Below, in pieces: positions 12,714-34,765 of a DNA stretch of 64,000 nt (the first letter of the stretch is position 1; every line of letters starts with the position of its first letter). The stretch is from Candidatus Dadabacteria bacterium (GTDB lineage Bacteria > Desulfobacterota_D > UBA1144 > Nemesobacterales > Nemesobacteraceae), in contig JAJECI010000003.1 in assembly GCA_022822065.1 (NCBI GenBank), positions 124,001 to 188,000 on the forward strand. The letters run 5' to 3'. The notes under the pieces were generated by a model that worked only from the letters and a program-made list of their open reading frames with translations, was not told where the DNA came from and ran no database searches. Made by a program: the position numbers and the translations under genes.

Positions 12714-13490
12714 TTAAGTTTTCTGATCCCAGTTTACCATCCTGACCCCTCGTATAGCCAAGGCCGTCGCGGTATATGACAGGATGATGACCGGTCCGGT
12801 GGGCATATCAAACACTGCGGCGAAGGCGATGCCGGACAAAACTGCCACTACTCCGCAGAGCCATGCGACAAGATGAGGCTGTCTTACGCGTACGGCGGCC
12901 AGAGCCGGCAGTATGAGGCTTGCAAAGACTACATAGACGCCGACCAGCTGAACCGATGAAGTGATGGCAAGGGCGAAGAGCAGATAAAATCCAATGTTGT
13001 TTCGCACCTTGGGCCTGGAAAACCAGGCCAGCAATATCAACGCGTAAATAGGTGCGTGTTTTGCCAGATCTGTCCATGTCACGAACAGCATTTGTCCTGA
13101 AAGCAGGTGCTTTACCTCATCTCCACCGTGGGGGTGATCGGCAAGCAGCAGAAGCGCCAGCGATGCGGCAAGTACAAAAGTGCACCCTATGATCGCCTCC
13201 TGTCGCTCGGGCATCGTCGTTTCCACTTTACGGAAAAACAGCCCTGCTGCAACCGCGCAGCTAAGCGCTACGAACTGGATCAGCCACGGAGATGGGTCAT
13301 GGATAAACATGTCATGGATAAACATGTTGCCGACCACAAGCCCGAGTCCCGCAATCTGCGCCACCGCAAGATCAATAAAGATGATGCCGCGGCGCAGTAC
13401 CTCGATGCCCAAGGGAGCGTGGGTAAGTGCAATCATGAGGCCGGCAGCCACTGCCGGCCCGATGATTTCCAGAAGTTCACTGCTTAACAT
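12714..13490 (-). CDS. metal ABC transporter permease (ZnuB-like)
   Basis: Polytopic protein with metal ABC-3 signature (GIEVLRRGIIFIDLAVAQIAGLG, LVGVYVVFASLILPALAA). Confidence 0.85.
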   Translation of the reverse strand: MLSSELLEIIGPAVAAGLMIALTHAPLGIEVLRRGIIFIDLAVAQIAGLGLVVGNMFIHDMFIHDPSPWLIQFVALSCAVAAGLFFRKVETTMPERQEAIIGCTFVLAASLALLLLADHPHGGDEVKHLLSGQMLFVTWTDLAKHAPIYALILLAWFSRPKVRNNIGFYLLFALAITSSVQLVGVYVVFASLILPALAAVRVRQPHLVAWLCGVVAVLSGIAFAAVFDMPTGPVIILSYTATALAIRGVRMVNWDQKT

Positions 13491-13497
13491 GATATGT

Positions 13498-14412
13498 CTA
13501 TTTCAACAAAGCTATAATCCTGTCAAACAGCGCGAACAGATCGCCGCTTTGGCTGTCACCGCCAATGGTGTAAGGAAGCACGACTGCCCTTGCCCCGGTT
13601 TTCTCCGAGAACCATTTGCTAGCTTTATCCGGATCGTAAGGGGTACGGATAATCACATCCGCCGGGCTGTTTCTTAACTTCTGCAGCAGATTCTTCAGGT
13701 GAGAAGTTGTGGGAGGAATTCCGGGTTTCGGTTCAAGCGCCCCCACTCCTTTCATTCCGAGCCAGTCAATCAGATAACTAAACGATTTGTGATGAACCAC
13801 AACCGGCTTTCCTTTAAGCTCGGCGGCCTCGGATTCCCACCGGGATATGGCCTTTTGCATGCGTGATGAAAAATCCCGGTAACTATCTTTATAAAAAGAG
13901 GCGTTTTCAGGGTCGACTCCCGAAAGGCGATCCGCAAGCACTTCGCCTACAATTATTAGGTTGTACGGATTCAGGTGCACGTGGGGATTGCCTTCCGGAT
14001 GTACATCTCCCATGCTGCGGTCGACCACAAGCGGTACTTCGAGCATGGTGACCAGATTTGAAGCCATAAGGTAACCGACGGAACCGGGCTGGAGATCAGA
14101 ACTTGCTTTCTTAAGCAGAACCGGAAGCCAGCCTATCTCAAGACTTGCGCCCGAGCAGATCAGCAAATCGGCTTTGCGCACTTTGGATATCAGGCTTGGG
14201 CGTGCCCTTATGTAGTGTGGATTCTGCAAGGCCGAGGTGGCCGAAAACGCTTTCACCTTGTCACCGCCGACTTCTTGGGCTAGTGCCGCCCATTCCGGTT
14301 CGCAGGCAAATACTTTTACCTTCTCCTGATCAGAAGCGGCGAAAGCGGGGATATGAGAAAACGGCAAAACGGCAAAGAACGCGGTTATAACCGCGAAACG
14401 TAATATATTCAT
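13498..14412 (-). CDS. metal ABC transporter substrate-binding protein (ZnuA-like)
   Basis: Signal peptide, HPEGNPHVHLNPYN, VVVHHKSFSYLIDWLGM cluster A-I motifs. Confidence 0.87.
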   Translation of the reverse strand: MNILRFAVITAFFAVLPFSHIPAFAASDQEKVKVFACEPEWAALAQEVGGDKVKAFSATSALQNPHYIRARPSLISKVRKADLLICSGASLEIGWLPVLLKKASSDLQPGSVGYLMASNLVTMLEVPLVVDRSMGDVHPEGNPHVHLNPYNLIIVGEVLADRLSGVDPENASFYKDSYRDFSSRMQKAISRWESEAAELKGKPVVVHHKSFSYLIDWLGMKGVGALEPKPGIPPTTSHLKNLLQKLRNSPADVIIRTPYDPDKASKWFSEKTGARAVVLPYTIGGDSQSGDLFALFDRIIALLK

Positions 14413-14488
14413 TTTTTCCTCCTTAAGTTTGAAAAGAAGACTCTGCTGCCCGCACGAATGCGCGGGGAATAAAAAGTCTGTTTACAGA

Positions 14489-14773
14489 TCAGGAGGAGAT
14501 GGGAGGTCCGCGAGTAATTCCCGCTTCGCAAGTGTCCCGAACGACTATAACGTCAGCGAGTGGCTGCGGGACGTGCTGTGCGCGGTGAAGAACACGGATT
14601 TCACTCGTGGCGCCGGGATCTGTATAGTCCTGATACTTGGCGTTCAGGCAGGTCTCGCAGGCAATTCCCTCATGCTTATGCTCCTGGGAACCGCACTCGG
14701 CCGCATGGGCAAAGGAAAGCATCTGCGCCCCCAGAAAGGCGATTGTAAGCAATAAGGAAAATGTTCTGCTCAT
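14489..14773 (-). CDS. small secreted Cys/His protein (DUF2946-like?), copy A
   Basis: Signal peptide; EHKHEGIACETC; C-terminal RGPP; near-duplicate of 16572..16862. Confidence 0.6.
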   Translation of the reverse strand: MSRTFSLLLTIAFLGAQMLSFAHAAECGSQEHKHEGIACETCLNAKYQDYTDPGATSEIRVLHRAQHVPQPLADVIVVRDTCEAGITRGPPISS

Positions 14774-14783
14774 CTGTATGGGT

Positions 14784-14834
14784 AAATGAGAAATATTATC
14801 ATTTAACCTACCTTACGAGAAAGTACGGTGTCAA
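14784..14834 (-). promoter_or_regulatory. candidate promoter (TTGACA) with Fur/Zur-like palindrome, copy A
   Basis: aaatgaGAAATATTAtcattt at 14784..14804 plus minus-strand TTGACA at 14829..14834. Confidence 0.5.
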
Positions 14835-14972
14835 TGATGTATGTACTTCAGGCCGTCAGTTCCACCGATTCCTTGGGCCAGTTGCCAAAAAATATGCCGG
14901 GGCCACGAAAAGTAGCCCCGGCAGGAGTATGGAGAGACAAGAGTCAAGTAACGTTTCGTGTCACGGTTGCTC

Positions 14973-16496
14973 TTAGTATTTATGCGCGGCGTGTGCACCT
15001 ATGCTCATTATGTACTGGAGCAGAATCTGGTTGTCGCTCAGGTCCTCACCCAGTTTCTCGTAGTTGTACTGAAGGCGTATGCGGGAAAACTCGCTGTTTG
15101 ACCAGTCTCCCATGACCGCTACCGCATAGGGATCGTGATTTATCCCTGAATCCTTGGGAGAGTAGATCTGGGAATAGCGGGTTCCGATTCTCCATTTCGG
15201 CGAGAACTTGAAAACCCCTTGTGCGTACCAGCCGTGGCTTCCTCCGTCGAGGTACTCTTCGTAGACCTCGCCTCCTTCCTCAAGAGTGTAGATGCCTTCT
15301 TCCTCACGCCAGAAATACTCACCCTGGAGAAGCAACTCTTTCTGGCGGATGTTTCCAGTGGGGGCCCAAACGTAGCGAAAATCAACCGAGTAAAGCCTCG
15401 TGTCGCCCGTAAACATGCCGGCGCTGAAGAACTCCTCATGTCCATGTTCATCCGCGTGGTCATCCATGTGGTCGTCCATGTGGTCGTCCATGTGGTCATC
15501 ATCGTGGTCACCCGCGTGATCATCATCGTGGTCATCCATGTGGTCATCATCGTGGTCATCCATGTGGCCGTTTTCTTCATGGGCATGCTCATCTTCGTGT
15601 CCATGTCCGTGTCCGCCGGCGCGACCGTTTGCCTCTCCGTCAAGGAAATAACCTCCGATTCTCCAGGATGAATTATTTCCTATGTCACCGCCTACCCGCA
15701 GGAAGGCGCTGAATGAGTTTATGTCGCTACCATCAGCCCCTGCAAACGGAAAATCGTCTCCGCGGAAAATACCGCCTCCCGCCTCGACATAGAAGTCGGT
15801 TGGAAGCACGTATGAAATCTGCGCTCCGGTATCATTAAAGGCATTGTCGAGGTACACTCTGTAAGGCAGGGGACGATCGGCGAAATCGTCAGCGTGGGCG
15901 TGATGCTCGTTCATGTATCCAAAAGTCCAGAACGCGCGTCCAAACCTTATCGTCGTTCCCGTTGGAAGCCCGAGACCTGGAAGGGTTTCCACGTATGCTT
16001 CCTCAAGTTCTACCTCAACCCCGCCTCCATGGTCCGCAAGAGCCGTTGTTATGTGGCCGTAAAATTTATCATCGACGCTTGTAGAGAAATTAAGCTCGGT
16101 TTCTCCAAGGGAGATTCCTTCCGCTCCCCGTTCTCCTTCGTGTCCCAAGACAAACCCTGGAATCTCGCCCTCGTCAGAAGAGAATGCGGCGAATTGTCCG
16201 CCCAGTACCGCTCCGATTGAAGGATTAAGGGTGCTGTTGTAAATGGCTCTGCCGGGGTAGACGACATCCTTGCTCTTTGAGTAAGTCGTTTTCGTTTTAT
16301 CCAGAGTTGCCTCAGTCTTCATCTCGGCAAGTTTTTCCTCCATCTTTAAAATCCGGTTCTCATATTCTGACCTCATTTCCTGTATTTCCTTCTTTAAAGC
16401 TTCTATCTCCTGATCAGAAGCGGCAAAAGCGGGGATATGAGAAAACGGCAAGACGGCAAAAAACGCAGTTATTACCGCGAAACGCAATATATTCAT
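14973..16496 (-). CDS. outer-membrane protein with N-terminal coiled coil and His/Asp repeat loop (metal-related)
   Basis: Signal peptide, EIEALKKEIQEMRSEYENRI coiled coil, beta-rich body, HMDDHDDDHMDDHDDDH repeats; start set at MNILRF by comparison with copy A instead of ORF-track 16538. Confidence 0.78.
   Translation of the reverse strand: MNILRFAVITAFFAVLPFSHIPAFAASDQEIEALKKEIQEMRSEYENRILKMEEKLAEMKTEATLDKTKTTYSKSKDVVYPGRAIYNSTLNPSIGAVLGGQFAAFSSDEGEIPGFVLGHEGERGAEGISLGETELNFSTSVDDKFYGHITTALADHGGGVEVELEEAYVETLPGLGLPTGTTIRFGRAFWTFGYMNEHHAHADDFADRPLPYRVYLDNAFNDTGAQISYVLPTDFYVEAGGGIFRGDDFPFAGADGSDINSFSAFLRVGGDIGNNSSWRIGGYFLDGEANGRAGGHGHGHEDEHAHEENGHMDDHDDDHMDDHDDDHAGDHDDDHMDDHMDDHMDDHADEHGHEEFFSAGMFTGDTRLYSVDFRYVWAPTGNIRQKELLLQGEYFWREEEGIYTLEEGGEVYEEYLDGGSHGWYAQGVFKFSPKWRIGTRYSQIYSPKDSGINHDPYAVAVMGDWSNSEFSRIRLQYNYEKLGEDLSDNQILLQYIMSIGAHAAHKY
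15436..15616. repeat. tandem coding repeat (His/Asp-rich)
   Basis: Repeated tggtcatccatg / tggtcatcatcg units on + strand encoding DDHM/DDHDDDH on minus strand. Confidence 0.85.
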
Positions 16497-16571
16497 TTTT
16501 TCCTCCTTAAGTTTGAAAAAAAATTCCGTTGCCCGCACGTATGCGCGGGGAATAAAAAGTCTGTTTACGGC

Positions 16572-16862
16572 TTAGGAGGAAAGGGGAGGTCCGCGTGTAA
16601 TTCCCGCGTCGTAAGCGTCCCGAACGAAGATGACCTCAATGGGTGGCTGCGGGACGTGCTGCGCGCGGTGAAGAACACGGACTTCATTCGTGGTGCCGGG
16701 AGTTGAGAAGTCCTGATACTTGGCGCTCAGGCAGATTTCGCAGGCAATTCCCTCATGCTCATGCTCCTGGGAGCCGTACTCGGCCGCGTGGGCAAAGGAG
16801 AACATCTGCGCTCCCAGAAAAACGATTGTCAGTAGTGAGGAAAGTGTCTTGCTCATCCGCAT
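16572..16862 (-). CDS. small secreted Cys/His protein (DUF2946-like?), copy B
   Basis: Signal peptide; EHEHEGIACEIC; C-terminal TRGPPLSS; paralog of 14489..14773. Confidence 0.6.
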   Translation of the reverse strand: MRMSKTLSSLLTIVFLGAQMFSFAHAAEYGSQEHEHEGIACEICLSAKYQDFSTPGTTNEVRVLHRAQHVPQPPIEVIFVRDAYDAGITRGPPLSS

Positions 16863-16866
16863 TGCT

Positions 16867-16917
16867 AAATGAGAAATATTTTCATTTAGTCTATCATACG
16901 GGAAAGCCCTGTGTCAA
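16867..16917 (-). promoter_or_regulatory. candidate promoter (TTGACA) with Fur/Zur-like palindrome, copy B
   Basis: aaatgaGAAATATTTtcattt at 16867..16887 plus minus-strand TTGACA at 16912..16917. Confidence 0.5.
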
Positions 16918-17082
16918 TGAAGTAAGCGGAGACCGTGAGGTGTTCGGTTTCAACGCGGCGGAATCTTTTCTGTAGCAATCCGAGAAAAACGTGGACCCAA
17001 GAGCCTCAGGCCCCTCCGTCCTGTTGAGTATCTTTGCTGTTTGAGTAACATTACCGCCACGCATCGATTTTCGGAGGTTAAA

Positions 17083-32910: not shown

Positions 32911-33309
32911 TCAGTAAAAAACTCTCACGGCGATAAAGGCGAAGAAAAAGCCTACGCACCATAGAAGCACGGACAACAGATATATCCAGTTGCTTGTCTT
33001 TCGCAGCCTGGCACACGCTATTGCCTGCGCCGGGTCAATCGGACAAGGGGCGTTTCTTGCCCTCCAGAGCGCAACTCCGGCGATCAGAAGCACCGCGCCT
33101 GAGATTCCGAACGTCAATATCTTGTATTTTGACAGCGCGATCAGCCAGGGCGCGGTGCCTACGATTCCCGCGAGAGTGGCACCAGCCCCGAGAGTCACTA
33201 ACAGCGCGGGAAGCGCGCAGCACACAAGCGTTCCAGCGGATGTAACCAGGCTGAGCGTGGGAAGAAGCGTTTGCTTCACTCCGTAGTCAGGGGTGGCGTT
33301 ATCCATGTT
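32911..33309 (-). CDS. MerT-like metal transport membrane protein
   Basis: TSAGTLVCCALPALLVTLGAGATLAGIVGTAPWL; TM helices; downstream of HMA-domain gene; start set at MDNATPD. Confidence 0.68.
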   Translation of the reverse strand, partial: NMDNATPDYGVKQTLLPTLSLVTSAGTLVCCALPALLVTLGAGATLAGIVGTAPWLIALSKYKILTFGISGAVLLIAGVALWRARNAPCPIDPAQAIACARLRKTSNWIYLLSVLLWCVGFFFAFIAVRVFY

Positions 33310-33682
33310 CGCATCCCCTCCCAATGGCGGCTATGTTGTACCCGGAGTCCGTGATAAGCTTCGTAAGCGTCGCGTCGTCAATGGTCAATCCTGGCTTCAT
33401 GGCGACCACTACGGAGCCTTTGCCGAGATCGACCTTGATACCGGCGACATCGCCGCGTTTCAGAAAGACTTTTTCCAGGGAACGTGCGCAGAAGTCGCAT
33501 ACAAGCCCGTTCACCTTGATGTTGACGGTGTCTTCACAGGATGCGTTCTCTATGCTGTTGGAAGCCTTAACCGCTTCCACCGCTTCACCTTCATGGTTGT
33601 GTTTGTGTTCTCCATGTTCCGCATTGCTATGGAACGCAAAGAAAAGTGTGATAAACGCAATTGTAATAATTGATGGTTTCAT
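33299..33682 (-). CDS. secreted heavy-metal-associated (HMA/MerP-like) protein
   Basis: Signal peptide, His-rich EHGEHKHNHEG, VNGLVCDFCARSLEKVF CxxC HMA motif. Confidence 0.82.
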   Translation of the reverse strand: MKPSIITIAFITLFFAFHSNAEHGEHKHNHEGEAVEAVKASNSIENASCEDTVNIKVNGLVCDFCARSLEKVFLKRGDVAGIKVDLGKGSVVVAMKPGLTIDDATLTKLITDSGYNIAAIGRGCEHG

Positions 33683-33692
33683 GATTTTCTCC

Positions 33693-34340
33693 CTAAAATC
33701 TTATTATTAAGTTAAACAGAATCCCACCTTTGTCGCTGATTCCGACCTCGGCGAGATACTGGTTTTTAAAAAACCGCACAAAAGGCGTAAAGATGATGTT
33801 ATCTCTCTCGCCCGTGATGTGGTCAACCTGGAGCATGAGCCACGTGTGAACATCGTCGTAATCCCCCAAGTAGGGGGCGATTCCCACTCGCGCTTTTTGC
33901 CTGAAGAACTTGGCTATATCTTCTGCGTAGTAAACGCGGTTCTCATAACTGGTAAAACACCGTCGATTTTCCCAGTCAAGGGCGATATCCGTAAACGCGG
34001 CGGGCTGAGGCTTGCCGTCAGGCAATCCGAGGTCATCATAGGCCACTCCCAAGCCGCTTTTAAGGTAGAAATTTGCCTGCGAGGCCGGTGCGTTGTGGCG
34101 CTTCACCAAGTAATTAAACTGCACGCCGTGGAACTGCCAACCCTCCCCGGGCCAGTATTCGGTCCTGTATCCTATCGAATACCTGGCCGTCGGCGAATAA
34201 TGGACGTGGAGAGAATGGGCGTTCTTGTCGTTTTTCTGCATGATTGTCCATCCGCCCGGGTATGACACCGGACGGGAGAGAGACGGGGAAGCGTATCCCA
34301 GCAAAACCACGCAGCATAAAGCGAAAACTGCTGATTTCAT
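33693..34340 (-). CDS. secreted, probably beta-barrel conserved hypothetical
   Basis: Signal peptide MKSAVFALCCVVLLGYASPSLS; alternating aromatic strands; ends in LIIRF as OM proteins often do. Confidence 0.55.
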   Translation of the reverse strand: MKSAVFALCCVVLLGYASPSLSRPVSYPGGWTIMQKNDKNAHSLHVHYSPTARYSIGYRTEYWPGEGWQFHGVQFNYLVKRHNAPASQANFYLKSGLGVAYDDLGLPDGKPQPAAFTDIALDWENRRCFTSYENRVYYAEDIAKFFRQKARVGIAPYLGDYDDVHTWLMLQVDHITGERDNIIFTPFVRFFKNQYLAEVGISDKGGILFNLIIRF

Positions 34341-34417
34341 ATTTCCTCCTGAATATCTTGATTATAGTCTGGCAACGCCGAAGCGAAGCCATTTGGGCGT
34401 GCGGACGCGCGGATTGA

Positions 34418-34765
34418 TCAGGAGGTATGTTTTGGAGGCTGGAAGGGGGTATCGACCTGGCGGGAGGATAAAAGCTCATCGACTGGAATTCCGACGGCGA
34501 TTTTCCCGTGATTATCTTTTGATTCTTGAAGCGACAGAGCGTTTATCTGGACGCAGTGCAGGCAATTGCAGCCATCGCATTCATCTGAATTCTGATCCCG
34601 CGATTCTTCGGTGTTATGGCAAGGCATGTCCATATCGCCGTCCATCTGCATTTCGACGGGAGCTTCATGCATATTCATCAGACATGTGGAGAAGGCGTTT
34701 GCCGTGCCACCGGCGAACAACATAATGCACACAAGAAACAGCGTTACCGTTTTCATAAAACTCAT
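34418..34765 (-). CDS. CopL-like secreted Cys/His/Met-rich small protein
   Basis: Signal peptide; MQMDGDMDMPCHN, DECDGCNCLHC. Confidence 0.55.
   Translation of the reverse strand: MSFMKTVTLFLVCIMLFAGGTANAFSTCLMNMHEAPVEMQMDGDMDMPCHNTEESRDQNSDECDGCNCLHCVQINALSLQESKDNHGKIAVGIPVDELLSSRQVDTPFQPPKHTS

Follow-up and report, generated by a model that had tools for sequence, protein, structure and literature searches.

Gene organisation of the locus

The 64,000-nucleotide stretch analysed here, which we call the window (positions 124,001 to 188,000 of contig JAJECI010000003.1, assembly GCA_022822065.1), belongs to the 1.63 Mb genome of a Candidatus Dadabacteria bacterium. Its relatives are Candidatus Dadabacteria metagenome-assembled genomes (MAGs), and we presume that this genome and its relatives are sponge-associated. 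On the minus strand, the window carries a putative metal-uptake locus in the order small gene A, outer-membrane protein (OMP) gene, small gene B, gene for a ZnuA/AztC-like substrate-binding protein (SBP), and gene for an ABC-3 family metal permease. Small gene A (16572..16862; all coordinates are those of the window) encodes 96 residues with a signal peptide, the motif EHEHEG, a CxxC motif and a C-terminal RGPP, and is DUF2946-like via distant relatives. The OMP (14973..16496, 507 residues) comprises a leader, a coiled coil and a predicted porin-like β-barrel with a His/Asp-rich loop. Small gene B (14489..14773, 94 residues) is the duplicate copy and has an extra cysteine that is fixed in every B copy, at a position where the A copies have Tyr or His. 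The SBP (13498..14412, 304 residues) is chimeric, joining the OMP leader to the mature part of an SBP. The permease gene (12714..13490, 258 residues) is followed by a gene for a flavin adenine dinucleotide (FAD) oxidoreductase.

Comparison of this region with the window by blastn gave one 520-bp match between 14322..14841, on the SBP side, and 16406..16924, on the OMP side, with 86.5% identity, one gap and E ~1e-178. A preliminary description of this DNA had proposed that blocks at 14323..14837 and 16407..16920 align end to end, and its block ends prove right within 1-5 bases; the similarity is not confined to short motifs. The two copies have in common an operator, a promoter, a small gene, a hairpin, a ribosome-binding site and 30 leader codons, and the alignment spans the TTGACA element, hairpin and Shine-Dalgarno region that had been listed as shared. 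The small proteins, correctly taken for secreted paralogues of ~95 residues, are 75-76% identical to each other. The leaders of the OMP (16407..16496) and of the SBP (14323..14412) encode the same peptide, MNILRFAVITAFFAVLPFSHIPAFAASDQE. The first 30 codons had been called identical; this holds for the peptide and not for the DNA, where the copies in the window genome show six synonymous and no nonsynonymous differences. Similarity between the OMP and the SBP stops at codon 30-31, and the two cargoes are unrelated thereafter, as had been noted.

Arrangement in relatives and direction of copying

Our comparison set consists of 14 genomes of the window genome's genus (G000-G013). Both copies are present in eight of them (G000, G002, G005, G008, G009, G010, G011 and G012), where the second module sits between the OMP and SBP genes and the SBP begins with the OMP leader. 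The pairing of a small gene with the SBP and of a small gene with the OMP, for which a synteny search had been suggested, is thus found repeatedly. Five genomes (G001, G003, G004, G006 and G007) have a single copy consisting of small gene, OMP, SBP and permease. In these, the OMP bears a MNILRFAVITAFFAVLPFSH...-type leader and the SBP a different signal peptide, such as MKHLLTLLSILLPGLLFVAPAFSFA in G006. In G013 the contig stops after the OMP gene. A contig binned as Poribacteria (L038, JAAXHL010000045.1) is also of the two-copy type, with a second leader that is not intact. Filed under Candidatus Poribacteria, it resembles Dadabacteria, its metal operon and flanking oxidoreductase being 83-90% identical, and it is likely to be mis-binned.

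In MAGs assembled from short reads, repeats are often broken or doubled, and the contigs of G013, G008 and G010 end near the module, as might be expected if one module had been falsely doubled during assembly. However, the two copies differ by ~13%, and the same junction recurs in eight independent MAGs, in most of which the module lies on a long contig between trpS and the next gene. The probability that we are looking at a mis-assembled, collapsed or expanded repeat is practically negligible.

Outside the genus, the OMP gene is directly followed by the SBP gene in 30 of 30 betaproteobacterial loci, with a small CxxC/R(A/G)PP gene in front in 27 of them; the starts of their SBPs have the look of unrelated signal peptides. 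The order small gene, OMP, SBP is also found in an alphaproteobacterial bin and in Sulfurovum mangrovi, and Vibrio campbellii has the order OMP, SBP, permease. Judging by the arrangement in relatives and outgroups, the ancestral operon is the single-copy one (small gene, OMP, SBP with its own signal peptide, permease), in which the OMP is the owner of the leader; the SBP is its acquirer, the OMP-side block being the ancestral and the SBP-side block the derived copy.

The two blocks by themselves are symmetric, and direction cannot be read from them. They would equally fit a cassette that began with the importer and was then copied in front of the OMP gene, bringing it under importer control. 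This is very improbable, as, in single-copy relatives and in outgroups, it is the OMP that bears the leader and the SBP of the same operon has another signal peptide, and as a fossil SBP start (see below) sits upstream of the derived copy. The duplication and capture of a cassette put forward in the preliminary description are therefore upheld and their direction is reversed. The OMP was not placed under the control of the importer, since both genes already shared an operon before the duplication, and what had been seen as a cassette driving two different cargo genes appears to be one old operon split into two co-regulated units.

At the trpS locus of G004 (L048, C50, 5600-6160) and G007 (L052, C1, 5581-5655), fragments of the operon are still found. 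They include the exact operator (in G004), the first 37 codons of the small gene, and permease pieces 88-96% identical to those of the window. An intact, more diverged single-copy operon sits elsewhere in both genomes, and the trpS-locus operon has apparently been lost.

The fossil SBP start

In the two-copy genomes, the gap between the OMP stop codon and small gene B aligns with the 5' end of the SBP gene of single-copy relatives. The window remnant (14862..14959, minus strand) covers the old signal peptide and the start of the mature protein. It has lost its start codon (ATG to ACG) and carries a frameshift and a 38-bp deletion at 14882/14883, but still holds the signal-peptide core and ...CCCAAGGAATCGGTGG. 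Decay is less advanced in G005, G008 and L038, where the remnant still reads ...PAYSFA(K/R)VKVF.CKPKW. The SBP residues KVKVFACEPEWAALAQE.GG are doubled, being present both in the remnant and after the leader in the live gene. The in-frame fusion of the copy with the SBP falls at the signal-peptide junction (...AFAASDQE followed by KVKVFACEPEW); if cleavage follows AFA, the mature SBP gains ~5 residues. Two routes would lead to the doubled residues: two template jumps within one replication event, or tandem duplication and then deletion.

The SBP-side copies form one clade, which includes G012_A (97/94 support), and share one junction; the duplication therefore probably had a single origin. 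The position of G012_A inside the B clade is likely to be due to conversion. It could also be taken, together with the closeness of A to B in G009, G002 and G011, as a sign of concerted evolution, in which recurrent gene conversion keeps the modules alike because shared regulation or a shared leader matters. However, the small genes show 82.7% identity between A and B within genomes, no higher than the 87.3% between B copies of different genomes. A general role of conversion is unsupported by these values and we consider it distinctly unlikely.

A terminator-like hairpin in the remnant

The remnant contains a terminator-like hairpin, TGCCGGGGCTACTTTTCGTGGCCCCGGCA + TATTTTTT (14883..14923, minus strand), built of the dead signal-peptide codons for LPGLLFVAPA. 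Its 12-bp stem (~-25 kcal/mol) is followed by seven T in eight positions, and the window sequence thus has the GC-rich stem and T-run of an intrinsic terminator. Across nine two-copy sequences, the outer-stem columns are invariant in 16 of 16 cases, compared with 38 of 112 (34%) of the other remnant columns (Fisher p = 2e-7). In the remnant of G010 (L055, ~2507-2535), the hairpin loop is inverted relative to all other species and the outer stem is unchanged, which suggests that conservation of the stem has become independent of coding. The best T-runs are those of G000, G002, G009 and G011. Most likely, the hairpin now ends the transcript of small gene A and the OMP gene.

Operators and regulator

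Operator A, the Fur-family-type palindrome TAAATGAAAATATTTCTCATTTA (16866..16888), lies upstream of small gene A and adjoins promoter A (16888..16917; TTGACA, 18-nt spacer, TAGACT). Operator B, TAAATGATAATATTTCTCATTTA, occupies 14783..14805, and the TTGACA -35 element of promoter B is at 14829..14834; all four features are on the minus strand. That each block holds the same palindrome was correct: the window contains exactly two occurrences of the operator TAAATGANAATATTTCTCATTTA, and 0 are expected in 100 shuffles even at three mismatches. The palindrome lies just downstream of a TTGACA-type promoter element in 23 of 23 module copies.

The only other close operator site in the window genome overlaps the beginning of a Fur-family gene (L070:1868-2326), which is followed by a MerC-like gene. 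A related palindrome is found genus-wide, and at the start codon of the same Fur-family gene where checked; in G001, G006 and G007 this gene lies within ~6 kb of the operon. The presence of the palindrome in both modules and at the start of the Fur-family gene speaks for a metal repressor, probably Zur, that regulates its own gene as well as both modules. Zur boxes of the 7-1-7 and of the 23-bp form are on record (PMC6103462). The metal is probably zinc, given the type of SBP, the His/Asp loop and the CxxC partner. When the operator pattern was relaxed to two mismatches, it gave 84 strand-hits, compared with 34 for a reversed-pattern control, which is too noisy to define a regulon.

Constraint on the two modules

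The eight two-copy species are separated by synonymous divergence (dS) of up to ~0.6 in trpS, and operators and reading frames are intact in both copies throughout. The ratio of nonsynonymous to synonymous divergence (dN/dS) between small genes A and B of the same genome is 0.41-0.56 in seven genomes and 0.96 in G011. The small genes evolve fairly fast (dN/dS ~0.3-0.7 in most comparisons), but, from these sequences, both copies are under constraint. The A module evolves faster than the B module, which is about as conserved as its flanks.

A chance template switch, or a tandem duplication with deletion, may have happened to leave the SBP both expressed and exported while bringing no gain in regulation. 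Two template jumps in a single event would indeed account for all junctions, including the doubled SBP residues, and the high ratios of the small genes, above all in G011, are in keeping with a neutral by-product of this kind. The intact operators and frames over the divergence just given, the conservation of the B module and the invariant hairpin stem argue against it, and we regard it as rather doubtful.

Between species, the synonymous divergence of the B-side small genes is often 2-4 fold below that of the A-side and flanking genes. This low divergence among B copies raised the idea of a recent horizontal spread of the B module, which we rejected as the flanks show no clear tract.

The encoded proteins and the parent module

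The SBP matches PF01297 (ZnuA) over residues 34-295 (E 2.5e-39; 135.8 bits, cut-off 29), in agreement with its first description as a ZnuA-like binding protein. Its best named NCBIfam model is AztC, at 64 bits and so below the cut-off of 350, and the top PDB matches are manganese SBPs. The permease matches PF00950. SBP and permease are thus of the families found in ZnuA/AztC-type zinc importers (cluster A-I SBPs, ABC-3 permeases). The operon differs from these importers in lacking an ATPase gene, in having the OMP and a small Cys/His protein before the SBP, and in the borrowed OMP leader of the SBP. An ATPase gene is also absent from the operon in Sulfurovum (L157) and Vibrio campbellii (L156), and present in Azonexus (L043).

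The small protein and the OMP belong to no family in Pfam or NCBIfam. The small protein shares with DUF2946 (PF11162) the CxxC motif and a C-terminal R(A/G)PP, but none of the members tested reaches the family cut-off: the Dadabacteria proteins give no match, and the betaproteobacterial counterparts reach E ~5e-4 to 8e-4, at best 20-21 bits (cut-off 23.7). DUF2946 proteins occur in a Caulobacter Zur data set (PMC4176598). The AlphaFold model of the small protein is mostly disordered, with a predicted local distance difference test (pLDDT) score of 58.

The model of the OMP has ~16 strands and a coiled coil, at a low mean pLDDT of 48. With this low-confidence model, Foldseek gave a probability of 1.0 to OmpT, OprO and DcaP, with AlgE also among the nearest folds. 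We therefore describe the OMP as a predicted porin-like β-barrel with a His/Asp loop, in line with the His/Asp outer-membrane protein first proposed. A Pfam plug domain was not found in the OMP, which lacks the combination of plug and 22-strand barrel of TonB-dependent receptors; an Azonexus homologue gives a weak match to a TonB-receptor barrel (E 0.003). ZnuD is an outer-membrane zinc receptor. The OMP resembles ZnuD-type receptors in being a barrel that has a His/Asp-rich loop and seems to be controlled from a Fur-family operator, and differs from them in its porin size, its N-terminal coiled coil and the absence of a plug. The loop is encoded by a 24-bp (2 x 12-bp) tandem repeat at 15441-15567. 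Its length differs widely among species; G001, G006 and G007 have Glu-rich sequence instead, and the Vibrio OMP has its own EDHDHGHADEHGHDHSHG loop.

Modules of small gene, OMP and SBP, with or without permease, occur in Beta-, Alpha- and Gammaproteobacteria and Campylobacterota (L156, L157, L043, L041, L079-L107), the OMP and small protein again being without a named family. In Sulfurovum (L157) these two are annotated as 'hypothetical protein', beside a 'zinc ABC transporter substrate-binding protein' and a permease. A literature search, which did not cover subscription literature, found no account of the small gene-OMP-SBP-permease module. We regard the parent module as a putative, uncharacterised outer-to-inner-membrane metal uptake module.

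Elsewhere in the window, a cluster at 32911-34765 looks, by eye, like mercury/metal transport genes. It holds a paired-Cys membrane protein, a His-rich protein resembling heavy-metal-associated (HMA) domains, and two small secreted proteins, one of which contains CxxCxC.

Discussion

The interpretation that we favour, with a probability of roughly 0.8, is that the 5' end of the SBP gene received a copy of the promoter, small gene and OMP leader, which split the operon into two units under common regulation. The duplication and its direction, the chimeric SBP, the remnant, the conservation of the hairpin and the operator at the regulator gene are all read directly from the DNA. The starting point would have been a promoter/operator followed by a small secreted Cys/His protein, an OMP with the leader, an SBP with its own signal peptide, and a permease. 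Once in the genus, a copy of the segment from about the -35 element through OMP codon 30 would have been placed at the start of the SBP gene, and the in-frame join at the signal-peptide junction would have left the SBP to be exported by the OMP leader. The old SBP 5' end, stranded upstream, would then have decayed, its signal-peptide codons providing the GC-rich hairpin and T's that end the transcript of small gene A and the OMP. Two units would result, small A-OMP and small B-SBP-permease, both repressed at near-identical operators by one Fur-family regulator, most likely Zur, and opened under shortage of a metal, most likely zinc. The SBP would be freed from read-through past the OMP gene and the hairpin, and the amounts of importer and OMP could differ. 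Within this scheme, termination, the identity of the regulator as Zur, zinc as the metal and an advantage in dosage are what we infer.

Several observations weigh against this interpretation. The SBP gene tree places the single-copy genome G003 among the duplicated genomes, on a long branch, and the permease and OMP trees leave its placement unresolved; its position in the SBP tree is probably unreliable, owing to long-branch attraction or recombination. The regulator is nearer to Fur than to characterised Zur proteins (NCBIfam and PDB searches), and the operator can be read as a 7-1-7 Fur box too; iron or another metal may therefore be the signal. No ABC ATPase gene is present in the window operon, and the best ATPase match in the genome belongs to another metal ABC cluster, on C8 and beside a DtxR-like gene. 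In G006 and G007, whose signal-peptide codons are intact, the hairpin is already present within them, so that conservation of the stem may not serve termination, and the T-run is weak in G005, G008, G010, G012 and L038. In G006 and G007, with the gene intact, the hairpin could attenuate SBP expression, and such attenuation is a plausible, if unproven, reason for favouring a separate SBP promoter.

As in other chimeric genes formed by duplication with capture of a promoter or leader, a gene has here gained a new promoter and 5' coding end. It differs from these in that the donor is a neighbour in the same operon, that exactly a signal peptide was swapped, and that the replaced 5' end persists as a fossil between genes. 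Our literature search, again without subscription literature, found nothing relevant on signal-peptide capture of this kind or on terminators from dead coding sequence. Taking everything together, we suggest, tentatively, that a natural signal-peptide swap split an operon, that the discarded codons became a terminator, and that the parent operon, in many cases lacking an ATPase gene, is an uncharacterised metal uptake module found in Dadabacteria, Beta-, Alpha- and Gammaproteobacteria, and Campylobacterota.

The locus documents with unusual completeness how, in a single step, a bacterial gene can exchange its promoter and its export signal: the donor is adjacent, the replaced start is still readable as a fossil, and living relatives represent the states before and after. 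It makes testable both the reuse of dead coding sequence as a terminator and the interchangeability of outer-membrane and periplasmic signal peptides. The parent module suggests a conserved outer-membrane porin for metal uptake; so far, the annotation of its genes is 'hypothetical protein'.

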